A stretch of DNA of 64,000 nucleotides from an uncultured Paracoccaceae bacterium (GTDB lineage Bacteria; Pseudomonadota; Alphaproteobacteria; Rhodobacterales; Rhodobacteraceae): assembly GCA_947503775.1 (NCBI GenBank), contig CANNFE010000006.1:182508-246507 (forward strand), in the 5' to 3' direction. Shown here piece by piece: positions 49,677-63,833 of the stretch. The position numbers and the translations under genes are program-made. The notes beneath the pieces were generated by a model. That model was not told where the DNA came from. It made no database searches and saw only the letters and a list, made by a program, of their open reading frames with translations. The first letter of the stretch is position 1. Each line of letters opens with the position of its first letter.

Positions 49677-49751
49677 GCCCGGGTAGCTCAGGGGTAGAGC
49701 AGTGGATTGAAAATCCTCGTGTCGGTGGTTCGATTCCGCCCCCGGGCACCA
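49677..49751 (+). tRNA. tRNA-Phe (GAA)
   Basis: GCCCGGGTAGCTCAGGGGTAGAGCAGTGGATTGAAAATCCTCGTGTCGGTGGTTCGATTCCGCCCCCGGGCACCA; CCA encoded. Confidence 0.95.
49733..49751 (+). repeat. att core copy 1 (3' end of tRNA-Phe)
   Basis: ATTCCGCCCCCGGGCACCA. Confidence 0.92.
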
Positions 49752-49841
49752 TTCATTTCTTCCGTCCTTTGTTTTCAATGGCTTAGGCGGCGATTTTGTC
49801 CCACCGTTTGCCACCACGTCGAAAAGTGGGACACTTTTGTC

Positions 49842-50891
49842 CTACTTACGTTCCGCCGTCATGCGCTTCAGGGCGCTTTCGGCGCGGGTCTTTTGACTGG
49901 CGGCGCGGGTGTATCTGGTGACTTCTTTCGAGGTCCGGTGCCCGGTGATGGCCATGATCTCGAATTCGGTGCAGCCCTGTTCCGCCAGTCGTGCGGCGGC
50001 TGCCTTGCGCAGCCCATGGACGGAACACTGGGGCAGGCCCGCTTCATCACACCACTTGCGGAAGCGATTGCCGAAACCGTTCGACGTGAAAGGCCGCTTG
50101 AAAGCCGTCACCATGAAGGTCAGGTCCCCGGTCGGGCTGGCGTCGATGATCCGCTGAAGATCGGGGATGATCGGGATTTCTTGGCGGACGGGTGAGCGGT
50201 TCCGGTTCTTGTGCTGCGTGAAGATCAGCCACCCATCGCGAACATGCTGTTTCCCAAGCTGCACCAGATCGGAACGGCGCTGCCCCGTGTAGAGCGCAAG
50301 GGCGAGCGCCAGCCGTGCCATGCTACCCACCGGATGCGTCTCTTCGTATTTCTCGATTTCGGCCAAGGTCCAGGAATGGAATCCATCGGCGTTCTTCGGG
50401 CTCAAGTATTCGATTTCCGTGGCCGGATTCCGGTCGTGCAGATCATAGCGGACGGCGAATTTGTAAAGTTGGCGAAGCGCCTTCACCATTCCGTTAGCAG
50501 CTTCGGGGCGGTCCATCATTTCGTCACGTCGCGCTCGGATGTGCTTTGGCTGTAGCAGGGCGAAGGGCTTGTCGCCGTCGTTCTTGTGCTGACAAAAGCG
50601 GTCCAGGATGCCCCGGCGAACCCTTTGTGTGCGCGGGTCCAATTCACAGAACATGGCCGATTTGTAGTATTCGGCGCAAAGGAAACGCACCGATCCGGGG
50701 ACCAGTTGCCCCACCGTGGGCGCGGACTTGGCCTTTGATTCGCCCGCGCAGGCTACTTTGAAGGCCGCCAGAAATTCCGGCGAACCGATAGGGCTGGGAA
50801 GTCTGATTTTCTTGCCATGTCGCCGGAAATACAGACGAACATTGCCGTGGCGGTCCACGTCTTCGACAACGTATTTCAAGCGTATTTTCAT
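49842..50891 (-). CDS. Tyrosine-type site-specific integrase
   Basis: ALYTGQRRSDLVQL, CSVHGLRKAAAARLAEQG, ITGHRTSKEVTRYTRAA: R-HxxR-H-Y all present. Confidence 0.93.
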   Translation of the reverse strand: MKIRLKYVVEDVDRHGNVRLYFRRHGKKIRLPSPIGSPEFLAAFKVACAGESKAKSAPTVGQLVPGSVRFLCAEYYKSAMFCELDPRTQRVRRGILDRFCQHKNDGDKPFALLQPKHIRARRDEMMDRPEAANGMVKALRQLYKFAVRYDLHDRNPATEIEYLSPKNADGFHSWTLAEIEKYEETHPVGSMARLALALALYTGQRRSDLVQLGKQHVRDGWLIFTQHKNRNRSPVRQEIPIIPDLQRIIDASPTGDLTFMVTAFKRPFTSNGFGNRFRKWCDEAGLPQCSVHGLRKAAAARLAEQGCTEFEIMAITGHRTSKEVTRYTRAASQKTRAESALKRMTAERK

Positions 50892-50908
50892 GGAATCCCC
50901 GGTCATTT

Positions 50909-51163
50909 TCAATCGTCCCAGGGATTGTCGTCTATCTCGCCGTCACTCGGCAAGGCTTCGAAAAATTGATCCAGTGCGCGAACGTCCCAGACTTTCCGCC
51001 CGTCGATCCGCTTAGGCTTGGGCATACGTCCATCCGAAACCATTTCGTCGAATTTGGTAGGGCCGACTCCGACATAGCCCGCCGCCAGGACACGCGACAG
51101 GCCCCGCCGCGTGGGCGGAAGGACTGCCGGTGTCTGGCCTTGGGTATGTTCAACGCGGCTCAC
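50909..51163 (-). CDS. AlpA/excisionase-like HTH protein
   Basis: VGPTKFDEMVSDGRMPKPKRIDGRKVWDVRALDQFFEAL; GTG start likely. Confidence 0.75.
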   Translation of the reverse strand: MSRVEHTQGQTPAVLPPTRRGLSRVLAAGYVGVGPTKFDEMVSDGRMPKPKRIDGRKVWDVRALDQFFEALPSDGEIDDNPWDD

Positions 51164-51173
51164 TGGTCCCCGC

Positions 51174-51503
51174 TTAGAACGCGCCGTTGAGGCGGACGCG
51201 GACGCTGCCAGACGGGTTGCCCGCGTCGGACACGGCCACGCCGATCTTCGTGTTGCCGGAAGCCGTGGTCGTGACCAGCCCGTCGCTGGACCGCCAGTAG
51301 ATCGGCGCGCCAACGTCGATTGCGTCGGCGGCTACCTTGGGCAGATCAAAAACGCCCGTGGTCGAGATTGTCAGGGCTTCCCCGGTCAGGGCGTCGGTCG
51401 ACGCAATGCCGAAGAGTGAGCCCACCTTGACGGCTTCGCCGCTGGTCACGGTTGTCGGGGCGGGAATGGTCACGTTGTCGCCGATATGGACGAAGTTTCG
51501 CAT
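51174..51503 (-). CDS. DUF2190-like phage capsid protein
   Basis: MRNFVHIGDNVTIPAPTTVTSGEAVKVGSLFGIA... Confidence 0.85.
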   Translation of the reverse strand: MRNFVHIGDNVTIPAPTTVTSGEAVKVGSLFGIASTDALTGEALTISTTGVFDLPKVAADAIDVGAPIYWRSSDGLVTTTASGNTKIGVAVSDAGNPSGSVRVRLNGAF

Positions 51504-51504
51504 G

Positions 51505-51735
51505 TCAGAGTCCTTTCGAGGTTCTGAAGGTGATGGTGTGCGGGGGCTTTCGTGCCCCCGCGACTTGGGCTTCGAGGTCCGCCACATACCGCTGAAGATC
51601 GGCGCGGCTGACGGGCCGGTATTCGATCTTTTCGCCGTTCTGGTCCGTGACGGAGACGGCTTGCGTCCCCGTCAGAAGCTGGTGAAGCGCCTCTTGGGCC
51701 TCTTCCAGCCGCTCTTGTGTGGTCAGGACGGCCAT
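51505..51735 (-). CDS. gpW-like head-tail joining protein
   Basis: LEEAQEALHQLLTGTQAVSVTDQNGEKIEYRPVSRADLQRYVADLEAQ. Confidence 0.88.
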   Translation of the reverse strand: MAVLTTQERLEEAQEALHQLLTGTQAVSVTDQNGEKIEYRPVSRADLQRYVADLEAQVAGARKPPHTITFRTSKGL

Positions 51736-51738
51736 GGG

Positions 51739-53514
51739 TCAGACCGCCGGAATCTGGTGCGCGCCGCGCCAGTCCAGCCAGCCCGCGCCGAAGTCCAGAA
51801 AAGCGCGATACTTCATGCCCAGGGTGTCCCAGGCTTCCGTCCGCTGAATCTGGACGCCCTGGGCGGACGACAGGTAGGCGTATTGCATCGCCGCCAGCCG
51901 CGCCGGGTCCGCGAAGACATACCACGTCCCCACCGGAAGCCGGGGCTCCACCAGAAGCGTGAGCTTGCCGCCGAAGGGATTCACGTCGCCCGTGGTGGAG
52001 GGCTGGATCGACGCCAGCACACGTTCGGCTTCGGTTTCCAGATCGGCCCCCACCAGCACATAGCGGGGCGCGGCGGCGATGATCGTCTTGCCGTCCAGGC
52101 CCTTGCGGGTCCGCATGGCAAGGCGCGCTTCGGTCAGGGCGTCCACGTCCGGGGCGCTTGCCGTGCCGATGTTGTCGCGGCTGGCGTCGAAGACCGCCGT
52201 GCCGTCTGACAGATCGGGGTTGCCGGTCAGAAGGTCCACAAGGATGTCAGCTTCCGTCTGGGCGGCTGCTTCGCCCAGGGCGGCGGTCATGTCCCCCAAA
52301 AGCCCCAGATCATCGTCGATCATCAGCTTGCGGGATACGGTCACGCCGCGCGCGAAGGTCTTCAGACGCATGGTTTCGCCATTTTCCGCGCGGCTGGTGT
52401 GGGTGATCTCACCGGACTCGGCCAGTTCCTCCAGACGGCCCATTTCACCCAGGCGAATGGACGTGGAATCCTTGAAGTTCGGAAGCGTCCGCTGGCGACA
52501 GAGCGCCTTCAGGGGCGACTCGGCGGCGCGGTAGGTGTCCAGCGCGACCTTGCCCATGGCGTTGCTCACGGTCAGGGGGAAGTCGCTGGTGGTGTGTTCC
52601 CCGGCCCGCGTGAACACTTCGTCGGCGGACATGCCGCGCGTGGACACGCCGGAACGGGTCAGAGCGTCGACAGCCATGTCCCGAAGAGACAGGTTCAGGA
52701 AGGGCCGCACATCGTCGGCGGGGTCGCCGCCCGCGCCCATGCGGAACGCCAAAGCGTCGGACTGGCGGCGGGTGATCGTCGCCGGGTCGTCGTTTGCCGG
52801 GGCATGGGACCGGATGATCGGGGCCGCACGGCGTCGGTCCTGCACGGCGTCGAAGATTTCCGCCTTTGCGCGCGTGATGTCCGCGCCCGCGTCGATCAGG
52901 TCGTCCGCCACCTGGGCGTCCAGATTGGCAGAGCGGACCAGCGCGCGAATATCGGTGCGCCGGGTCTGTTCCGCCGCTTCAGGCGAAACGGTTTCGGTTT
53001 CGAGAATATCGTCAGGCATGGGGGACTCCTCTTTGTGCCGCAGACGGGCGGACGGGTCCGCCGGGTTCGAGGTCAGGGTGACTTCGGTGATGGTCCAGGC
53101 GGTGGGGCTCTTCACCCGCCCCGCTGGGGTCTGTTTTTCGGTCCATCCGGCGACGCGGTATCCGATGGACACCCCCGTCACCGTCCCGTCCGCGATCCGC
53201 TGCACAACGGGGGCAGCATCTTCGGCGGACGTGATCTCCAGAACGGCGATGACCGCTTCGCCTTCGGAAGCGATGGACCGAACCCGCCCAAGCTGGTCGC
53301 GAACCGACGCGGTTCGATGTGAGTCGAGAACGGGCAAGCCTTGCGACGCGGACAGGTCCAGCGTGTCCGCCGTCAGGATTTCGAGGAACGGGCCGCGCGC
53401 GTCGCGGCGGCGCACGGGGGACGGCGTGGCGATGACCGCCGAAACCGTTCGCGTGTCTGCGTCCCAGGTGTTTGGGCGCGTCGGTGCGGCGCGTGTGAGG
53501 GTGTCAGTCGTCAT
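51739..53514 (-). CDS. Prohead protease / major capsid protein fusion
   Basis: N-terminal HK97-type protease segment (LPVLDSHRTASVRDQLGRV, DGTVTGVSIGYRV, ITEVTLTSNPADP) in one ORF with a Mu/HK97-like MCP. Confidence 0.88.
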   Translation of the reverse strand: MTTDTLTRAAPTRPNTWDADTRTVSAVIATPSPVRRRDARGPFLEILTADTLDLSASQGLPVLDSHRTASVRDQLGRVRSIASEGEAVIAVLEITSAEDAAPVVQRIADGTVTGVSIGYRVAGWTEKQTPAGRVKSPTAWTITEVTLTSNPADPSARLRHKEESPMPDDILETETVSPEAAEQTRRTDIRALVRSANLDAQVADDLIDAGADITRAKAEIFDAVQDRRRAAPIIRSHAPANDDPATITRRQSDALAFRMGAGGDPADDVRPFLNLSLRDMAVDALTRSGVSTRGMSADEVFTRAGEHTTSDFPLTVSNAMGKVALDTYRAAESPLKALCRQRTLPNFKDSTSIRLGEMGRLEELAESGEITHTSRAENGETMRLKTFARGVTVSRKLMIDDDLGLLGDMTAALGEAAAQTEADILVDLLTGNPDLSDGTAVFDASRDNIGTASAPDVDALTEARLAMRTRKGLDGKTIIAAAPRYVLVGADLETEAERVLASIQPSTTGDVNPFGGKLTLLVEPRLPVGTWYVFADPARLAAMQYAYLSSAQGVQIQRTEAWDTLGMKYRAFLDFGAGWLDWRGAHQIPAV

Positions 53515-54892
53515 CGCCGGACTCCGCTTCGTTCGGGGACCCGAAGGCCAGGCCAAGGTCGGCTTCGCGCGCACGGTCGGCGGCGATTTCCGCGTCCAGA
53601 TCGTCTGCGTTCCAGCCCAGTTCGTTCACGGCGCGGGTGCGGCTGGTCAGCCCCAGGGCCAGCGCCTCTTTGACCGCTGCCAAGTCCTTCTGGGGGTCGA
53701 CTTGCATCGGGCGGGGCATGATCCACTCGGCGGCAAGATCGGGGGTCAGGTCGAGACGCCCAGACAGGACTTCAGACACCAGCCAACGCCGCCAGATGGG
53801 GCGCAGGAATTGCGGAACCAGTGTTCCGTATTGGGCTTGCTCTACCCGCGCCCGGAAGGGCAGCAGGCCCGCCCGAAGGCTGGAATAGTTCGCGTTGGTC
53901 AGGTCCCCGGACAGAAGGTGTTCGGGCAGTCCCAGAGCCGCCGCCAGGGCTTGCAGGTTCATCCGCAGGAAGGCGGGCGAGTCCTTGGCAGCATCCGGGG
54001 CCGAAAACTTCACGTCGACGCCAGCGGGCAGCACCTTCAGGGTGCCGGGTTCCAGGCCGGTGTCCATGATCCCGCCCGTCTGGTCCCCGTCGAAGGGGAT
54101 TGAGCCCGTGGCGTTCATGTCGGTCAGGAAACCTGCGAACATGGCGCTGGTCTTCGCCCCCACCAGAAGGGCGTCCATAAGCTGGTCCAGTTCGGACGCC
54201 GACAGGACCGCCGGGGCCAGCCATGACAGTCCGCGCACCTGCCCCGCGCCTAGGGGGCGCATGATGTGCAGCACGTCGGCGGCGTCGAAGCGGATCGACG
54301 GCGCGTAGTCGGTAAAGGTGGCATGGGGTCGGTGGGGCAGAATCCAGTAGGCGACACGGCGTCCCTGGGCGTCAAACTCTACACCCGACACGATCAGCCG
54401 CCCGCCGCCCAGTTCCACGGTCTTCGCTTCGTCCAGTTGTTCTGGGGAAACGGTCTGAAGGGTGATCCCGTCCGCGTCGTCATGGATCAAGACCAGAGCT
54501 TCGCCGTCGACGATCAGGTGACGGGCAATGTCGCGCTGAAGGCCCCAGAAGTCTGTCCGTCCCGCCGCGTCGGCGTCATCCGCCCACGACTCGAAAGACC
54601 GGCTGGCGGCGCGTCGAGTGTCGGCGTCATCGGCGCGGGGCATGGGGCGGATACCTGCCCCCACCAGAGCCGCCGCCCAGTTGTCGACGCCGTTCGATAG
54701 CCAAGGATTGTTATTCGCCAGATAGCGCGCGCGGGAACGTGTGAGCGTGGCCCCCGCCGACACTTCCGGGTTGATCGGGCCAAAGGTGCCCATGCCCCCA
54801 CCACGCCGCCCACCCGCCGCCGCGTCGATCATGCGACGGGCAACGGGGGCGCTGGTCCGAAACAGTTTCGGAAGGCGAAGACGCAGGGCCAT
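53504..54892 (-). CDS. Phage portal protein (lambda gpB family)
   Basis: RSRARYLANNNPWLSNGVDNWAAALVGAGIRP; DVLHIMRPLGAGQVRGLSWLAPAV. Confidence 0.92.
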   Translation of the reverse strand: MALRLRLPKLFRTSAPVARRMIDAAAGGRRGGGMGTFGPINPEVSAGATLTRSRARYLANNNPWLSNGVDNWAAALVGAGIRPMPRADDADTRRAASRSFESWADDADAAGRTDFWGLQRDIARHLIVDGEALVLIHDDADGITLQTVSPEQLDEAKTVELGGGRLIVSGVEFDAQGRRVAYWILPHRPHATFTDYAPSIRFDAADVLHIMRPLGAGQVRGLSWLAPAVLSASELDQLMDALLVGAKTSAMFAGFLTDMNATGSIPFDGDQTGGIMDTGLEPGTLKVLPAGVDVKFSAPDAAKDSPAFLRMNLQALAAALGLPEHLLSGDLTNANYSSLRAGLLPFRARVEQAQYGTLVPQFLRPIWRRWLVSEVLSGRLDLTPDLAAEWIMPRPMQVDPQKDLAAVKEALALGLTSRTRAVNELGWNADDLDAEIAADRAREADLGLAFGSPNEAESGDDD

Positions 54893-54894
54893 GG

Positions 54895-55488
54895 TCAGTT
54901 CATGCCCTTGGTGTCGTCAGGGTGTGGACCGATGATCGCCGGAAACCACTGCCAAATGGGGATGGTGATTGTGCCGCCAAGTTCCATGGCAGGGTTCCGC
55001 TCCACATCGAAGCGTTCGGGGTCGTAAAGATTCGCGAGAAACTGACGGTTTCCATCCGCATCAGTGAAAACGTCGAGTTGGAACGTCCAATAAGCGCGGT
55101 CCTTTCCGCTTTTGTAGTAGTAAACAATCGCGGTGGTAACGGGGTGGGCGGCGGTGGGGAATTCTGGATTGCCGTCGAATGCGTAGCATCGCAGCGACGC
55201 AACCCGGAGCGTCTCACGATCCGCCACGCCGAATTGCGTGAGGGTCCGAAGGACTTTCGCCACGATCACGTCGGAAGGGGCGAAGAGATTGTGAGCCGTT
55301 CGCCCGCTGCCCTTCTTATCCCGAACGTGAAGCAAGCCCTGCGATACGAAGTTCCGCACCTGCGCCATCGCAGTCTTGACGGCAGCCTCGGTGTTGTAGG
55401 GTCGGGTGATAAGTTCGGCGACTTGGGACACGCTATAGCGCCCCCCAGGTTCGTCGTGCATGAAGAGCGGTTCAGCGGCGTCGGTCAT
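54895..55488 (-). CDS. HTH-containing hypothetical protein (putative regulator)
   Basis: RYSVSQVAELITRPYNTEAAVKTAMAQVRNFVSQGLLHVRDKKGSGRTAHNLFAPSDVIVAKVL resembles a winged/MerR-like HTH. Confidence 0.65.
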   Translation of the reverse strand: MTDAAEPLFMHDEPGGRYSVSQVAELITRPYNTEAAVKTAMAQVRNFVSQGLLHVRDKKGSGRTAHNLFAPSDVIVAKVLRTLTQFGVADRETLRVASLRCYAFDGNPEFPTAAHPVTTAIVYYYKSGKDRAYWTFQLDVFTDADGNRQFLANLYDPERFDVERNPAMELGGTITIPIWQWFPAIIGPHPDDTKGMN

Positions 55489-55643
55489 TTGCAAATCTCC
55501 AAATTCGTTGGCGTGATCTGCTATATACTCTAGACAATGTCGAGAGTCGAGTCCATATTGAAGATGCGCGGTGTGATGTCCGCGCGTCCATCTCGGTAGA
55601 CGCTGGGGGCGGCGCAAGTCGCCCCCAGCAAGTTGGAAACCCC

Positions 55644-55856
55644 ATGCACAGAAGCGACTATGAGAGGGCGAAGGCCCGCGTTTACTACAAAGCCCGCCGT
55701 CGCGGCCTGTTCTTTCGAACGCGCCCAAATCCCAAAAATGGGGTGCCTAGATACCGCATGATCCGTGAAGACGGCTTCGAAGTATGGTGGGCCGATCACA
55801 TCGGCGACGCGGAAGCCTATCTGGACAAGTCCCCGCCTAAGGGGTGGACCGACTAA
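55644..55856 (+). CDS. Small hypothetical protein, only plus-strand gene in the element
   Basis: 70 aa basic ORF MHRSDYERAKARVYYKARRRGLFFRTRPNPKNG... Confidence 0.55.
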   Translation: MHRSDYERAKARVYYKARRRGLFFRTRPNPKNGVPRYRMIREDGFEVWWADHIGDAEAYLDKSPPKGWTD

Positions 55857-56041
55857 AATACAGGGCGCATTGGCCCAGGATTCCCATGGTTCTTCAGGTC
55901 TTCAGCCTTGTGGACCACGATCTTCCCGCCAGCGCCGGGAATCTGGCAGTGGATTCCCTTTTCGTCGATCTTCACGATCACAAGCGCCTTAGGCTCGTTA
56001 CCGAAAGTCACTTGGTCCCCGATTTTCAATTCTTGGCCCAT
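55853..56041 (-). CDS. Small hypothetical protein
   Basis: MGQELKIGDQVTFGNEPKALVIVKIDEKGIHCQIPGAGGKIVVHKAEDL...; SH3-like beta pattern. Confidence 0.6.
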   Translation of the reverse strand: MGQELKIGDQVTFGNEPKALVIVKIDEKGIHCQIPGAGGKIVVHKAEDLKNHGNPGPMRPVF

Positions 56042-56043
56042 GC

Positions 56044-56601
56044 TCAATCCCTTCCTGAAATGAAACCAATTCGGGAACGCCCCTGCGCTTCATCCAATTC
56101 AAGTGAAAAGGCTTCACGGGCGTCTAGGTAAATCGCCTCGCAAATTTCAGACATGACGCCTACCGCGCTTTCGCCGATATGAATTTGCTGTTCACGGTTG
56201 CCGATAGTAAGCCGAACGCCTCCACCGGAAGGGTGAAATTCCAAAACTGTGCGAACCCAGGTCGCGCCACGGTCAGACGTATTCCCGATTTCTGTGCAGA
56301 CGCCCATCCGAATAGGATCAAGATAGATCGTGCCCCGCCCGTGACTGTCGAAGGCTTCACCACGGTAGCAGCCGCGCGGTTCAAAATTTCCATCCGGGGG
56401 GACCGCGTTCGCAGCCGTCTTTGGACCACCCAGATATGATATGTATTCCTTGACGATCTGCGGGCCTATGTCTTTCACCTTCCGATAGAAAACCATGGTT
56501 TCTTTCCCGTAATTGTTCGTCAGGTCCTGAAGTTCTTCGTATCTGCTTTTCGTCATTGCCACCCTCAAATGTTTCGAAAACGCTGTCAGCGATTCATCCA
56601 A
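56044..56601 (-). CDS. Hypothetical protein
   Basis: 185 aa ORF, overlaps 3' end of terminase large gene; alternative ATG at 56556. Confidence 0.6.
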   Translation of the reverse strand: MDESLTAFSKHLRVAMTKSRYEELQDLTNNYGKETMVFYRKVKDIGPQIVKEYISYLGGPKTAANAVPPDGNFEPRGCYRGEAFDSHGRGTIYLDPIRMGVCTEIGNTSDRGATWVRTVLEFHPSGGGVRLTIGNREQQIHIGESAVGVMSEICEAIYLDAREAFSLELDEAQGRSRIGFISGRD

Positions 56602-58355
56602 GCTGACCTTACCACGGGTGGATTCTTTTGGGGCGCGGCTTTTGTCGAGACTTCCGCTTCCCGCCGTTCCAGATCGACGCCCACCAGCGGGCGCACGGCG
56701 AGCGCGTAGACCATGCAGTCGAGGGACTCGGCCCGTCGCCCCGTGATCCGTTCCCAGACGCGCACGGGCGCACCGCGCTTGTAGCGGACCAGCCGCCGTT
56801 CGCTGGCGAGTTCTTCGAAAAACCGATCTTCCAGGCTATCGCTGAAGCGGACGGTGCGGCCCCGCGACAGGTGCGACGCTAGAGTGGCCTTCAGTCCGTC
56901 GACGCCCAAGATGAAGAGGCGGCTGCCCTTCGTTTCGGACGCCTTGATCGACGGACGCGCGCCGCCCGCGCCCTTGATTGCGACCACGCGACGGGCGAAG
57001 CGCGGACGACAGAAAGACAGAACCGAATCCATGGTCTCACCGTCGCCCGCGTCGATTGCCACGGCGTCGAGGTGCAAGGTCCCGCCGCCGGGGTGCGGCC
57101 ATTGCCCGCGCAAGTAGTCGTCCAGTTCCGCCCAGGTGTGATCTTCATGGGGGCTGCCCCAGATAACGTGTTGCGCCAAGACGAAGTAATCGGTCTTGCC
57201 GTGCCCCAAGATCACGATTTCTAAGCGGTCCCGCTGCACGTCGACACCCGCAGTCAGGACCAGCACGTCCGGGGGCAGCGCGTCCAGCCCGAACCGTTCA
57301 CGGCGCGCGGCCAGGGCGGCTTCGTCGATCTCTTCGGCGGCCTCACGCCAGCCTTCCGCCAAGATCGTGTTCACAAAGGTCTGAAGCTGGTCCGGGTGCC
57401 CCTTGGCTGCCAGAAACTCCGCCGCCAGCTTGCCCCAGGACGCATTCGCCAGCGTCGACACCAGGGCGTTGAGCCGGAAGCCCGCATGGCCTTCGACTTC
57501 GGGCCGCATCGCGCGCCACGCTCCGTTGTCGACCATGCCCGCCTTGTGCCGCTCTTCGATCAGTTCTTCGCAATGCGGGCAGCGGAAGGCGGCGGCCTGG
57601 GGTTGGTCGGGCTGCCATTCGATATGCCGCCATTGGATTTCAGTCATGGCCCCACATTCCGGGCATGGGACTTCGAACACGCGCTGGTCGGACTGGGCGT
57701 AGGACCGCAACACGTTCGAAGTGTCCATGAGCGTCGGAGTCGATCCCAGGATGATCTTGCGGTTGGCGAAGGACAGGGTGCGGCGTTCGGCCAAGGTGAT
57801 CGGGCTTCCTTCGGCGGACGGTTCCATGGCGTCGGCTTCGTCGATAAGCAGAATTCGGACGTTGTGTCGCCGCAGGTTGCGCGGGCTCTTGGCAGCGACG
57901 ATCTTCAGCGATCCGCCGGGGAAGCGTCGCGACAGAAGCGTAGACCGCCCGGACTCGTCGGCGTCGCCGGATATGAGCCCGCGCAGGGTGGGCGTAGCGT
58001 CGAAGATCGGTTCCAGGTCGGACACCACATAGTCGCGCGCGTCGGCTTCAGTTGGCAGAAGGGCGAGGATCGGCGACGGCTCATTCGCGACATAGGACGC
58101 AAGCGCGCCGGTCAGTAGCGTGGTGAACCCGACGCGAACGGGCTTCACCAGCGTCACGCGCTCCACCAGCGGGTCGCTGATAGCGTCCGCGATGCCCCGT
58201 TGATACGGCCAGAGGGTTACGCGCCCAGGTAGGGCAGACACGCCTTCAGGCAGTCGCATTTCGGCTTCCATCCATGCGGCCAGCGACATGCGCGGCGGCG
58301 GCTTCAGCGCGGCCAGGGCGCGCCCACGGGCTGCGGTCAGGGTGTCAGTCGTCAC
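56586..58355 (-). CDS. Terminase large subunit (lambda GpA family)
   Basis: MSLAAWMEAEMRLPEGVSALPG; RNLRRHNVRILLIDEADAM; zinc-binding CPECG...CPHC; nuclease VLTAGVDVQRDRLEI; GTG start. Confidence 0.94.
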   Translation of the reverse strand: MTTDTLTAARGRALAALKPPPRMSLAAWMEAEMRLPEGVSALPGRVTLWPYQRGIADAISDPLVERVTLVKPVRVGFTTLLTGALASYVANEPSPILALLPTEADARDYVVSDLEPIFDATPTLRGLISGDADESGRSTLLSRRFPGGSLKIVAAKSPRNLRRHNVRILLIDEADAMEPSAEGSPITLAERRTLSFANRKIILGSTPTLMDTSNVLRSYAQSDQRVFEVPCPECGAMTEIQWRHIEWQPDQPQAAAFRCPHCEELIEERHKAGMVDNGAWRAMRPEVEGHAGFRLNALVSTLANASWGKLAAEFLAAKGHPDQLQTFVNTILAEGWREAAEEIDEAALAARRERFGLDALPPDVLVLTAGVDVQRDRLEIVILGHGKTDYFVLAQHVIWGSPHEDHTWAELDDYLRGQWPHPGGGTLHLDAVAIDAGDGETMDSVLSFCRPRFARRVVAIKGAGGARPSIKASETKGSRLFILGVDGLKATLASHLSRGRTVRFSDSLEDRFFEELASERRLVRYKRGAPVRVWERITGRRAESLDCMVYALAVRPLVGVDLERREAEVSTKAAPQKNPPVVRSAWMNR

Positions 58356-58848
58356 GGCTGGCCTCCTCCAATGCGTCGCGGACTTCGCGGTCGATCATTT
58401 GCACGTCATGGGCGGTCAGGTGCCCAAGTCGCTGTTGAACGCGGGCCGGGATTGCCAGCATAGCGGCGCGTACGTCGCGCAGGACATGCGCCCACGCGGA
58501 TTCGACTTCGGCGACAGGGACCAGCGCGGCGCGGGTCTTGGCGTTCGCCAGTTCGATCTTCTCCGCATTGGCGCGGGCCAACCGCAGCTTTTCGGCGTTC
58601 AAGTCCGGGTCGGTCGATTGCCGCCCCCGCTGCCCGACGCGCAGGTGTTCGACATAGGCGCGGACGGCGGCTTGCAGATCGAAGCGCCCGTCCGTCCTGG
58701 GGATGACGCCTTGACGGGCCAGCGCGTGAATCCGAGCCGTGGACAGGTTCAGCCATTCCGACAATTCGGCGGCGGTCACGGTGTCGCCCAGGTGGGGTTC
58801 CACGCCGCCACCAAGGATGGCTTCGATTTCCGGGTCATAGGCGGTCAT
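58345..58848 (-). CDS. Terminase small subunit (Nu1-like)
   Basis: HTH VTAAELSEWLNLSTARIHALARQGVI and LRLARANAEKIELANAKTRAALVPVAEVESAW. Confidence 0.88.
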   Translation of the reverse strand: MTAYDPEIEAILGGGVEPHLGDTVTAAELSEWLNLSTARIHALARQGVIPRTDGRFDLQAAVRAYVEHLRVGQRGRQSTDPDLNAEKLRLARANAEKIELANAKTRAALVPVAEVESAWAHVLRDVRAAMLAIPARVQQRLGHLTAHDVQMIDREVRDALEEASRDD

Positions 58849-58869
58849 GCCGTTCCCCCAATTCAAGGA

Positions 58870-58933
58870 TTTCTAGAAATTCCAGAGTTTCTGGAACGCT
58901 GAAGTTGGATTCCCGATTCCAGAATTTCTGGAA
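58870..58933. repeat. Hyphenated palindromes in the primase-terS intergenic region
   Basis: TTTCTAGAAA (58870); TTCCAGA-GTT-TCTGGAA (58880-58896); TTCCAGA-ATT-TCTGGAA (58917-58933). Confidence 0.85.
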
Positions 58934-59117
58934 AGCGTGAAGAACCGGGGCTCCGCGCCCCCCGCAACGCGCCACGCCCAGGAAGGACCCTTGGGACAGG
59001 TGGGACAGGTCTTCCGGTTCCGTCCCTAGTGGGGTCTTCTGTGTGTTGTTCGCGCGCGCGTAGGCGATAAACCGGACGACATGTCCCACATGTCTCACTT
59101 CTTGGGATTCCAGTGGC

Positions 59118-61418
59118 TTAGAGGATTTCAAAGTCATCGGTGAAGTCCTCCATTGCTACGCGAATGCCCAGATAACCGCGCCCCCGGATGCCGTATCTGT
59201 TTTTGATCGCCTCAAACCCTCGCTGCGAAAGCGTCTCTGGAAAACTCCGGGCCTTCGTTCCGGGGTGTTCCCCGTTCTCGAAAGCGTAGGTGCTCCACGA
59301 GTCCCAGAGGTTCGCCGTCGTGTCAGCGTCGTGCTTTCCAGTCGTGCAGCATTCCTCAATCCACTGGGCGAAGATGTCCTGTTCCGCGAAGTAGGCGTCT
59401 GTTGCCCGCTGGGCGACTTCAGGTCTGACCAGCCCGTGAGCCTGCCAGTCCAGACACCCTTCGATCATCCAAGACAGAATACCCGGCCATTCCGCCTTTA
59501 GCTTCGCGGGCAGATCGGTGTCCTTCGACTTCGGGGGATGGTCGAAGGGTAGGATGATGAAGCGCCGCTTCACGGCTTCGTCCACGCTGGTCAGGGTCGG
59601 CGCGTTATTCCCGACGATCACCAGCTTCATTTGGGGTGTGAATTCGAAGCTGTTCTGGCGCATGAAGCGCGCCGTGATCTTGTCGCCGCCCGTGAGCGCC
59701 TTGATACGGTTCTCTGCCCACGCCCGTCCCTTTTCGGTTTCAGACGCCCAGGCCAGTCGTGCGCCGTCCAGACGGGCAATCTCTTCGGGGTGCGCGTCAT
59801 GCTTCGCCGCCGTCAGAGTCGAGGTCGCCACGTTGATCGCGTATTCGCCCAGGATGTCGGCCATGGTATTGATCGCCGTCGACTTGCCGGAACCGCCGGG
59901 GCCGTAGACGAAGACCAGCGCGTGTTCCTTCGTCATGCCGGTCAGGGAATAGCCGCCCCACATGCGAAGGAAGCGGACGGCTTCAGCATCACCGCCCAGA
60001 GCTTCGTCCAGGAAGGCCAGCCACCGGGGGCAGTCTCGCGCCGGGTCGAACCGATCCAGGGGCACCGGCGCGGCGGCGGTCAGACGAGACACATGGTCCG
60101 CCGGGTTGCCGGGGCGAAGGGTGCCAGTGCATAGATCGACGGTGCCCGTGGGCGTCCCCAGAAGCCACGGGTCGCGGTTCCAGTCCGCCGCCGTGGCCAC
60201 GAATTCCCGAACCGTCCGCGCGCCCCGTTCGATGGCTTCCCAAACGTTGACCTTGCGAAGCGCTTTGGCCGCCGGATCGTCTTCGGCCATGTCCGTTGCC
60301 AGCTTGCGGGCGTAGTGGTGGGCCAGCTTCGTTTCCTCACGCCGCCAGGAATTCCCGTCGAACCGGAACCAGCTTCCCGCCGCATGGTCGAACCGCAATT
60401 CATCCTTGTGCGCCGCTGTGAAGGCCCGGATCACGCCGTCTTCGTCCAGGTCGAAGTCCATGTCGCCGGTCGCGAGTGTCCCGCCCAGGATGGCTTCAAT
60501 GTCGTCATCATAGACCGTCTGGGTGTCGTCCAGATTGTCGAACAGGTCGATGATTTCCGCGCCTTCCCCGGTGATCCGCGCATGGGCGTTCTGAAGCGTT
60601 CGATCCTGTTGCCGGGTGCCCGCGCGGTGCCACCACGCGCCCGCGTCACCGTCATCCTGGGCGATTTCATCGCGGGCTTCCTCTTCGCCCAAGCCTTCGC
60701 GGAATCGGTCGCAAAGGAATTTGAAGCCGACTCCAGAACCCGACTCGTCGCCGCCCTTCGGACTGGTTTTTCCGGCCTGCCGCTTGAAGGCGGGGCCATG
60801 GTCGCGGACCAGCCATTCCAGATCGGCGCGCTTCACGGGCCTGATGGTCGACACGTCGCCAAGCTGGTCTTCGGTGACCGTGAAATACCGCCCGCCCAGG
60901 AACAGGGCGATTTCGGTGTGACCGCCCAGGGAGAATTCAGCGCCACCCTTTGGCGTCACCAGTCCCGCGTCCCGCAAGGCGGCCATGTCCGACTCTCGAC
61001 AAAAGAACAGGACATGCAGTCCCGTGCCGCTGGGGGACCGTTCGGCGTAGCTGGCGAAGCGGTCGACCACGGCGGACGCCCAGGGGGCCAGCTTGTCACC
61101 ATCCAGGCAGCCGTCTAGATCAACGCCACAGAGCCGCCAGCCGCGCGTCTGGGGCACGGGGGCGAACATGACGCCCAAGCCTGAAGCCCGTGCCCTGGGA
61201 AGCCCTTGGGCGCGCTTGTGCGCGGCTTTCCGGCTGCCCCAGGTGTCAGGGCTATCGGACTTTGCCGCGCGCCCCGTGGACGGGTTTACGGGCAGCTTCC
61301 GCCCGTCGCCGTTCTCCCGCCACGCCACCCAGATCGGGGCGTCCTTCAGATCGCCCAGGGTGAAGGTGGGCTTGCCACGGGGCTTTGATTTGTGGTATTC
61401 AGATACCGCGCTCTTCAT
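59118..61418 (-). CDS. Phage/plasmid primase-helicase (primpol-like N-terminus, D5/SF3 helicase)
   Basis: Prim-pol-like CGVDLDGCL, SPSGTGLHVLFF; Walker A VYGPGGSGKSTAINTMADILG; D5-type NNAPTLTSVDEAVKRRFIILPFDHPP. Confidence 0.92.
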   Translation of the reverse strand: MKSAVSEYHKSKPRGKPTFTLGDLKDAPIWVAWRENGDGRKLPVNPSTGRAAKSDSPDTWGSRKAAHKRAQGLPRARASGLGVMFAPVPQTRGWRLCGVDLDGCLDGDKLAPWASAVVDRFASYAERSPSGTGLHVLFFCRESDMAALRDAGLVTPKGGAEFSLGGHTEIALFLGGRYFTVTEDQLGDVSTIRPVKRADLEWLVRDHGPAFKRQAGKTSPKGGDESGSGVGFKFLCDRFREGLGEEEARDEIAQDDGDAGAWWHRAGTRQQDRTLQNAHARITGEGAEIIDLFDNLDDTQTVYDDDIEAILGGTLATGDMDFDLDEDGVIRAFTAAHKDELRFDHAAGSWFRFDGNSWRREETKLAHHYARKLATDMAEDDPAAKALRKVNVWEAIERGARTVREFVATAADWNRDPWLLGTPTGTVDLCTGTLRPGNPADHVSRLTAAAPVPLDRFDPARDCPRWLAFLDEALGGDAEAVRFLRMWGGYSLTGMTKEHALVFVYGPGGSGKSTAINTMADILGEYAINVATSTLTAAKHDAHPEEIARLDGARLAWASETEKGRAWAENRIKALTGGDKITARFMRQNSFEFTPQMKLVIVGNNAPTLTSVDEAVKRRFIILPFDHPPKSKDTDLPAKLKAEWPGILSWMIEGCLDWQAHGLVRPEVAQRATDAYFAEQDIFAQWIEECCTTGKHDADTTANLWDSWSTYAFENGEHPGTKARSFPETLSQRGFEAIKNRYGIRGRGYLGIRVAMEDFTDDFEIL

Positions 61419-61651
61419 GTGCTCTCTCCGGTGTATGTGAAGACGTTTCGGTCAATGCCAGATCGCCCGCCGTCCAGGTCATCACCCTGGGCGGCGGCTT
61501 TCGTTCAGGCTGGGGATATGTGGTGATGGTCCATTGCTGACGGACAAGCGGGCGTTTTCGGTGGGACACTTTTCCCGAAAAACCCTGAAAAACCATGGAA
61601 CTTTCGAGTGTCCCACTTTGCGCTAACTAGCTGATTTTTGGCGGTTTCTGC

Positions 61652-61670
61652 ATTCCGCCCCCGGGCACCA
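61652..61670 (+). repeat. att core copy 2
   Basis: ATTCCGCCCCCGGGCACCA, identical to 49733-49751. Confidence 0.92.
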
Positions 61671-61743: not shown

Positions 61744-62814
61744 CTAAGGTTTGACACTTTTGGCCTGCCTTCGGTTCTCTTCTTCCAGTGCGGCCATGGT
61801 CTCGCGGTTCTTGTCCGCAAGGTTCGCGGACCGGGAATAGTGCCGCGCCATGGAGGGTGTTTTCTGTCCCAGAAGGTCCGCGATGCGGCGTTCATCGAGG
61901 CCTGCTTCGCGTAAAGTCGTGGCGACAGTGTGCCGCAAGCCCTTGAGGGTCAGGCCTTTTTCGATAAGGCCTTCATTCTCAAGGGCGGTTTTGAAGCGGT
62001 GCCAAACGGTAGAGAAGCCGTTGTAAGTCCACGCCTCGCCGCGTGAATTGGAGAGCACGGTCTCAGCCCCATGGTCTGGCATACGGTTAAGTGCGGCTTG
62101 AAGTGTCGGACTAACCGGAATCGCGACCTCTTCGCCGGTCTTGCCGCGCGCAGCCCAGATCGTTCCATCATCGAACTGATCTTTCCGCAGTCGCAAAGCA
62201 TCGGATGTATCGAGGCCGGTGTTCATCATCAAAGCAAGGGCGACGCGCACGTGAGGCTTGGCCTTGTCCAAGACGGTGTCTCGCTCCTCGATGGTCCAGG
62301 GGCGGTTGGCATATATGCGGTCGCGCGGGCGGCGTTTGGGAATGACATCCTTTGCGAAGTTAGCTGAGATGAGCCCCTTCGGGATGTTGTAGCGAAACAC
62401 TTCGCTCATAAGCGTGCGCACCATGTTCGCCCGTCGCCAGCCGATCTTCTTCGCTGCCTTGTCGTGAATGCCCGCGATCAGCGGAGTGTCGATCAAGTGG
62501 ATAGGCGTGTCGGGGATCGGCTCAAGGAAATCTGCACACTTTCGGTAATCACGTCGCGTGGCTTCGGCCAAGTTTTGGAAGTGCTCGGTCTCAAAGTAAG
62601 ATTGGATAAACCCGCCAAGCGTTCCGGCCTTCGGAGCTTTGCTCCGCTGTGCCTCAGCGATGGCGCGGATCGCTTCGCATTCGGCAAAAAACTCTGCGGA
62701 ACCGATGGGCGCGCGGGCAAGGTTAACCTTGTGGCCGGTCTCGCGGTGATAGCATCGCTGCTTGCCGTGCCGGTCCTTGAAAGTCTTGAACCCTTTGACC
62801 CGCACCTGCGTCAT
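61744..62814 (-). CDS. Tyrosine-type integrase, divergent from the first
   Basis: C-terminal LTLKGLRHTVATTLREAGLDERRIADLLGQKTPSMARHYSR; GLDTSDALRLR in place of the usual GLRxSE. Confidence 0.88.
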   Translation of the reverse strand: MTQVRVKGFKTFKDRHGKQRCYHRETGHKVNLARAPIGSAEFFAECEAIRAIAEAQRSKAPKAGTLGGFIQSYFETEHFQNLAEATRRDYRKCADFLEPIPDTPIHLIDTPLIAGIHDKAAKKIGWRRANMVRTLMSEVFRYNIPKGLISANFAKDVIPKRRPRDRIYANRPWTIEERDTVLDKAKPHVRVALALMMNTGLDTSDALRLRKDQFDDGTIWAARGKTGEEVAIPVSPTLQAALNRMPDHGAETVLSNSRGEAWTYNGFSTVWHRFKTALENEGLIEKGLTLKGLRHTVATTLREAGLDERRIADLLGQKTPSMARHYSRSANLADKNRETMAALEEENRRQAKSVKP

Positions 62815-63050
62815 CAAAGGCGGTCTAGAATGGTTTCGCGGGTGTCGGTCACGGAACCTGACTTCACATCATCAATCCAGAGGTCGAGGTCCCGGCGATC
62901 CCAAAGACGTGCACCTCGTATCAACTCCACCGGGCGTACTGGGCAAGCGGCCTTAAAATGCTTGACTGGCAAACCGGCATAACTCGCGGCTTCGGACTGT
63001 TTCAGCATGCGCTTATCCACCACGTTAATATTGAGATTTGTCGTCGCCAT
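62814..63050 (-). CDS. Excisionase/AlpA-like HTH protein
   Basis: KRMLKQSEAASYAGLPVKHFKAACPVRPVELIRGARLWDRRDLDLWIDDV. Confidence 0.75.
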   Translation of the reverse strand: MATTNLNINVVDKRMLKQSEAASYAGLPVKHFKAACPVRPVELIRGARLWDRRDLDLWIDDVKSGSVTDTRETILDRL

Positions 63051-63273: not shown

Positions 63274-63410
63274 TTTCAGCCTCTACTGCTGGATATGAAT
63301 GGAACCGCTTGTTCCGCACCTTTTGACATGCTCAGATAGAAATAAGGCAGGAATAATGTCATTTTGTGCAGTTTTGCTCGTTATGACGGTTGCGTCAGTG
63401 GGAACCTCGC

Positions 63411-63833
63411 ATGCCGCAGGACAATAGGTCAGTTTTCGCTTCTATGGGCGCGCGCCTCGCTATTGCGCGCAACGAAGTCGGCTTGACGCAAACGGCAATG
63501 GCGGAGGCGATTGGCGTCTCACATCGCGCTTATCACAGCTACGAAAAGGGCCAACGAGGCCTTCCTGTGGAGGCGCTTGTGGCGATGGCAGACCGGTTTG
63601 AGGTGGATGCCGCGTGGATATTGCTCGGGACGCAGACTGTCCGTGCATCTCATGACTTTGAAGCCTTGAAACGGATTGAGACCTCGCTTGATCAGCACCT
63701 CAACGAAGAAAACATCAAAATCAAAAGTGAGAAGCGCGGGGCCATCGTCGCGCGTTGGTATCAGTCCCACCTCGAGGGGCGGGAGGTCAGAGATGATGAC
63801 GTTCACACATGGATCGAACTGGTAAGGGATTAA
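63411..63833 (+). CDS. XRE/CI-like repressor
   Basis: ARLAIARNEVGLTQTAMAEAIGVSHRAYHSYEKGQRGLPVEAL; divergent from the int/xis genes. Confidence 0.85.
   Translation: MPQDNRSVFASMGARLAIARNEVGLTQTAMAEAIGVSHRAYHSYEKGQRGLPVEALVAMADRFEVDAAWILLGTQTVRASHDFEALKRIETSLDQHLNEENIKIKSEKRGAIVARWYQSHLEGREVRDDDVHTWIELVRD

Follow-up and report, generated by a model that had tools for sequence, protein, structure and literature searches.

We analysed a window of 64,000 nucleotides from an uncultured Paracoccaceae bacterium (the whole stretch, positions 182,508 to 246,507 of contig CANNFE010000006.1 in assembly GCA_947503775.1), in which an earlier note had proposed a compact capsid-forming phage satellite at positions 49733-61670 (about 11.9 kb). 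Coordinates without a contig prefix refer to this window. The element is integrated in a tRNA-Phe (GAA) gene (49677-49751, plus strand, found with ARAGORN), whose 3' end forms attL, the left attachment (att) site. The 19-mer ATTCCGCCCCCGGGCACCA ends this tRNA gene at 49733-49751, and a second exact copy is found at 61652-61670, also on the plus strand, with a start-to-start distance of 11,919 bp. Allowing up to one mismatch, no further copy was found in the 3.9 Mb assembly. Between these exact ends the open reading frames (ORFs) are intact, and the main genes are all encoded by the minus strand, beginning with primase/helicase and continuing with terS, terL, accessory ORFs, regulator, portal, protease-capsid fusion, gpW, cement, AlpA-like gene, and integrase.

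The ORFs of the window were searched by profile against Pfam and PHROGs, with five starts corrected from the sequence (major capsid protein (MCP) 53514, terS 58848, cement 51503, AlpA-like 51163, and regulator 55488). All genes given here are on the minus strand. The head and packaging module consists of a Nu1-like small terminase subunit (58345-58848, 167 aa from ATG; phrog_57, 5e-31), a large subunit of GpA type with ATPase and nuclease domains (56586-58355; PF05876, 4e-85; PF20454, 2e-83), a lambda-type portal (53504-54892; PF05136, 5e-82), and an S78 protease fused to the MCP (51739-53514, 591 aa from ATG, with an open frame to 53574; phrog_4523, 1.7e-150), followed by a gpW head-tail adaptor (51505-51735; PF02831, 1.5e-14; phrog_75) and a DUF2190 capsid cement or decoration protein (51174-51503, 109 aa from an internal ATG; PF09956, 2e-29; phrog_122). 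The Pfam matches of the fusion are PF25209 (6.6e-46), PF10124, and PF04586, not PF05065; its capsid domain is also assigned to Phage_capsid_4, and a sequence comparison with solved structures gave no match. For mobility and replication there are a tyrosine integrase (49842-50912; PF00589, 2e-16; phrog_1), an AlpA- or excisionase-like helix-turn-helix (HTH) protein (50909-51163, 84 aa, GTG start), which is assigned from PHROGs alone (phrog_25900, 4e-14; phrog_66) with no Pfam match, and a primase/helicase with D5_N and DUF5906 domains (59118-61418; PF08706, 3e-22; phrog_6088, 7e-109). No tail, holin, or endolysin family was matched by the element's ORFs in Pfam or PHROGs, nor was an HNH family matched by any of them. 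The gene assignments of the earlier note are borne out, as are its perfect att ends, which are the only two copies in the genome, and its statement that tail and lysis genes are lacking.

A predicted regulatory gene is placed directly upstream of the portal. Nearly every satellite carries a gene of 160-215 aa and low sequence similarity at this position, while in tailed relatives the site before the portal is the end of terL or gpW, with no regulator. In the window, this gene (54895-55488, minus strand) encodes a satellite-specific winged HTH protein, identified from its structural model and its positional counterparts. The AlphaFold2 model (pLDDT 84.7, pTM 0.83) has as its best PDB match CvkR, a MerR-type transcriptional regulator (Foldseek 7xn2, E 5e-4, probability 1.00, TM 0.59 by target length), and the pre-portal genes of some relatives match MerR models in Pfam. 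Because of its position before the portal, this CvkR-like regulator probably gates the head operon. No Stl-like gene was found in the element, where the CvkR/MerR-like regulator occupies the site upstream of the portal.

The gap between terL and the regulator holds element-specific genes, often on the opposite strand. In the window these are orfA (56044-56601, minus strand), a rare accessory cargo protein present in 3 of 397 genomes, for which the structure model has low confidence (pLDDT 59.5); orfB (55853-56047, minus strand), a small accessory ORF kept in two close relatives; and orfP (55644-55856, plus strand), a small opposite-strand gene that is 66-84% conserved in close relatives. Elsewhere, the gap contains a SEC-C protein (locus L059) or a transposase (L053). 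In a plasmid-borne Paracoccus relative (L135, NZ_CP102356.1 39687-65474), a cytosine methyltransferase, an HNH endonuclease, and a second methyltransferase lie between terL and portal, which suggests that this slot can carry restriction-modification genes. A PADLOC scan of 80 unassigned ORFs gave weak, scattered matches and no defence system. A further small ORF, orf0 (61399-61596, minus strand), lies upstream of the primase gene and has relatives in L053, L051, and L059; its coding status is unsure.

Between primase and terS lies a stretch that does not look protein-coding, yet is conserved among relatives. A 100-aa ORF (orfD, 58835-59137) was rejected as a gene, as the region aligns as non-coding iterons and a cosN-like block. 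On the minus strand, 58945-58964 carries CGGGGGGCGCGGAGCCCCGG, a candidate cosN that resembles the joined lambda ends (...TTACG + GGGCGGCGACCTCGCGGG), likewise located upstream of a Nu1-like terS. The pattern CGGGGN(1-3)CG[CT]NGA[CG]C occurs in 19 of 41 representatives, always upstream of terS and on the same strand, and in 16 of 2050 shuffles, a count that serves as a guide and not as a strict test, since the pattern was picked after the sequences had been seen. Between the cosN candidate and terS, palindromic repeats of the TTCCAGAAATTCTGGAA type (58861-58936, minus strand) may be TerS-binding, cosB-like sites. Two paired clusters of 9-10 nt iterons in opposite orientation lie on the primase side (58992-59097, minus strand, with arms at 58992-59019 and 59070-59097). 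Inverted arms with at least 18 of 20 positions matching were found in 17 of 40 satellites, in none of 400 dinucleotide shuffles, and in none of 10 tailed relatives. The repeat unit varies between elements and the layout is constant; for a few loci (L039, L086), the best pair includes the repeats beside cosN instead. We regard this layout as ori-like, that is, as a putative replication origin for the adjacent primase.

The element belongs to a family that is widespread and had not been listed before. Of 397 genomes from the same bacterial family, the Rhodobacteraceae, at least 43 contain a near-full-length relative of the element's MCP; the MCP scans yielded 17 genome loci and 30 viral contigs, and copies in IMG/VR indicate that sequences of the family had already been catalogued as viral contigs. 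More than 50 loci share the same architecture, in the order primase-terS-terL-(variable)-portal-MCP-gpW-cement-AlpA-int-tRNA. About 30 distinct relatives of 9.9-12.8 kb are bounded by att repeats in nine tRNA types (Ser, Phe, Cys, Met, Pro, Tyr, Glu, Arg, and Gln); they were delimited by searching beyond the capsid gene for the 3' end of the tRNA, and some of these boundaries rest on short repeats of 13-16 nt. The element in the window, att-bounded at a tRNA and with this gene order, fits the 10-13 kb pattern. In a more distant clade beside tRNA-Met, no integrase follows the cement gene, and no tail genes are recognisable there either. Among the matches listed for 80 unassigned ORFs of 16 elements (Pfam; PHROGs, 25 of 32 matching families), there was no tail or lysis family.

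Modules are exchanged within this family. For example, L036 and L059 have near-identical capsids with different integrases and tRNAs, and integrase modules are thus swapped between members. A relative in Acuticoccus (Amorphaceae), which shares 94% of the integrase and 91% of TerL, suggests movement between orders. In some members of about 10.3 kb (L041, L043), a replication-initiator (O-like) gene replaces the primase/helicase, a swap of the replication module. The Rhodovastum atsumiense 'plasmid RHOAph' (L134, NZ_OW485609.1, 10,690 bp) encodes a protease-capsid fusion and has a DUF3987 primase-like gene as well as ParA and a toxin-antitoxin pair, with no terminase or portal among its listed genes, and may be a capsid-bearing satellite plasmid. 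Directly to the right of the attR copy in the window, we observed another tyrosine integrase (61744-62817), together with two small ORFs of HTH type and a cI-like regulator (63390-63833). The segment 61744-64000 is a second integrative element in tandem at tRNA-Phe, not host DNA, and is cut by the contig end (contig 6 ends at 246507); no far boundary of it was found.

The family stands apart from tailed phages. Among 50,697 phage records, the best MCP match has at most 31% identity, the best matches of TerL and portal have about 36% and 41%, and there are no relatives at the DNA level. In a tree of 72 MCPs, obtained by a quick search and with some long branches and an unknown root, a branch with SH-aLRT support of 97 separates all tail-less elements from the 14 tailed phages and prophages. 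These data bear on whether the element could be a cryptic prophage, left over from a lambda-like siphophage after deletion of the tail and lysis genes. The length distribution of Rhodobacteraceae prophages is bimodal, and a 2021 survey attributed the peak at 10-15 kb to decay (PMC8224337). Truncated hybrids do exist: at L107 (G102:C1:2973500-2993499, the same place as L030), a truncated satellite portal-capsid segment is joined to truncated tail genes like those of the Rhodobacter phage RcDormio, apparently through recombination between a satellite and a tailed prophage. However, a remnant accords poorly with intact ORFs and exact att ends, with an order and size that are constant in about 30 att-bounded elements at nine tRNA types, with a capsid clade apart from all 14 tailed rows, with a regulator and iterons found in satellites only, and with the low MCP identity to any phage record. 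We therefore reject decay, which we consider exceedingly unlikely, mainly on the family conservation, the att ends, and the MCP tree. The earlier note had argued against random decay and held that full-length prophages as relatives, or the lack of a conserved tail-less family of about 12 kb, would count against its proposal; we looked for both and found a tail-less, att-bounded family with capsids separate from those of tailed phages.

It is also highly improbable that the element is a complete small virus or a podovirus-like phage with a tail of its own too diverged for recognition. The unassigned orfA, orfB, and orfP leave some room for such genes, but they sit in the variable gap between terL and portal and are not common to the family, the conserved set after the capsid comprises only gpW, cement, AlpA, and integrase, and no lysis gene was found. 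A domesticated particle, or a device resembling a gene transfer agent (GTA) that packages host DNA, is hardly conceivable. GTAs are common in this host group, and one of two GTA_TIM genes in the genome suggests one here; however, the integrase, AlpA-like gene, primase, ori-like iterons, and cosN-like site, together with the several tRNA targets and integrase modules across relatives, indicate a self-moving element with site-specific packaging.

We consider it very likely that the element is an intact, integrative, capsid-forming phage satellite. Its integrase would insert it at the 3' end of tRNA-Phe. The entry of a helper phage or another inducing signal would relieve repression, and integrase and the AlpA-like protein would excise the element, which the primase-helicase would replicate, starting at the iteron origin next to the primase-helicase gene. 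The element's TerS and TerL would then cut cosN and fill a small capsid made of its own portal, protease-MCP, cement, and gpW. The gpW protein would present this head to the tail of another phage, which would also lyse the cell; since neither a lysis gene nor a recognisable stopper is present in the element, the helper probably supplies both. Three observations weigh against this explanation. First, a stopper (gpFII-like) gene was not recognisable in the element, where gpW is the sole connector recognised, so that the docking point to a tail was not located. Second, the gpW of a tailed prophage in the same genome has no significant similarity to that of the element. Third, in the family's more distant half the cosN and iteron signatures were not detected; the cosN pattern is mostly missing there.

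The elements probably spread with tails taken from other phages, and the genome offers two candidate sources. On contig 1 (C1), a tailed prophage matches RcDormio across head and tail. It has tails, with the dissimilar gpW described above, and as a helper it is given candidate status only. RcDormio tail proteins had no match in ordinary satellite loci; matches were confined to the hybrid L107, the tailed L141, and one weak match of 66 aa in L121. One GTA_TIM gene lies inside this prophage (C1:144521-145417), and the second, outside it (C1:477501-478391), probably marks a GTA cluster, the other candidate source. The capsids of the element might dock onto the tails of the GTA cluster, instead of or besides helper-phage tails. 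The second GTA_TIM gene and the concentration of the family in Rhodobacteraceae, a group known for GTA clusters, point in this direction, but the portal and adaptor set of GTA heads is a different one, and we regard such docking as very unlikely.

Judged by its genes, the satellite may work like capsid-forming phage-inducible chromosomal islands (cf-PICIs), which are defined by their own TerS, TerL, portal, head protease, major capsid protein, and head-tail connector and by the absence of tail genes (PMC10690885). Both the element and cf-PICIs (e.g., EcCIEDL933; average 14 kb, PMC10803314) are tail-less and of similar size and have an integrase, an AlpA-type gene, a primase, and this head and packaging set, of which one connector, gpW, was recognised here. 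In contrast, PF05065 (HK97 phage capsid) is the family of the 900 published cf-PICI capsids (PMC13230959), while that of the element is PF25209 and fused to an S78 protease; the terminase is of GpA/Nu1 type, the portal is lambda-type, the HNH gene of the cf-PICI packaging module (PMC10690885) is missing, and a regulator in the terL-portal gap takes the place of a recognised Stl. The hosts differ as well: cf-PICIs have been listed mainly from enterobacteria, Pasteurella, and Firmicutes, and Alphaproteobacteria are not among the listed hosts (PMC10803314). The earlier comparison with cf-PICIs thus holds for gene content and lack of tails and fails for capsid family and HNH, and because of these two differences we do not assign the element to the cf-PICIs. 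It is a distinct lineage of capsid-forming satellite, as the earlier note had thought possible, set apart by the published descriptions, although an unlisted alphaproteobacterial cf-PICI may exist.

Other systems share fewer features. Classical PICIs and Staphylococcus aureus pathogenicity islands have no capsid genes and redirect helper capsids, whereas the element has a complete capsid set. The Streptomyces satellites MulchRoom and MiniFlayer likewise have their own packaging and capsid genes, but they lack a primase, have direct terminal repeats and virulent helpers, and are unrelated in sequence (PMC10690885). RcDormio-type Rhodobacter siphophages share the arrangement terS-terL(GpA)-portal-protease/MCP fusion-cement with gpW, and their MCP is about 29% identical; unlike the element, they are about 41 kb in size, have a full tail and lysis genes (the tail, holin, and endolysin genes of a tailed prophage were not found in the element), and carry gpW before the portal, with no regulator or integrase in the head module. 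As in lambda, a cosN-like CGGGG...CG lies shortly upstream of a Nu1-like terS followed by a GpA-type terL, but the distance from cosN candidate to terS is about 90 nt instead of 190, and an ori-like iteron block and a primase gene precede it.

A broader possibility is that these capsid-forming satellites are an old radiation of their own, independent of the cf-PICI capsid clades described in publications; a CvkR-like repressor would gate their late genes, and in Rhodobacterales they may take both GTA and phage tails. We give this version little weight; if it were true and GTA tails were usable as well, the satellite would be freed from needing a co-infecting helper. The unrelated head module in Rhodobacteraceae, present in at least 43 of the 397 genomes sampled, implies that the capsid-forming, tail-borrowing lifestyle evolved independently. 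Part of the Rhodobacteraceae 'prophages' that make up the peak at 10-15 kb (PMC8224337) may be intact satellites. The family offers concrete, testable sites in cosN, ori, and the regulator, as well as a cargo slot for accessory genes, and the capsid-forming satellite lifestyle may be common in marine and freshwater bacteria.

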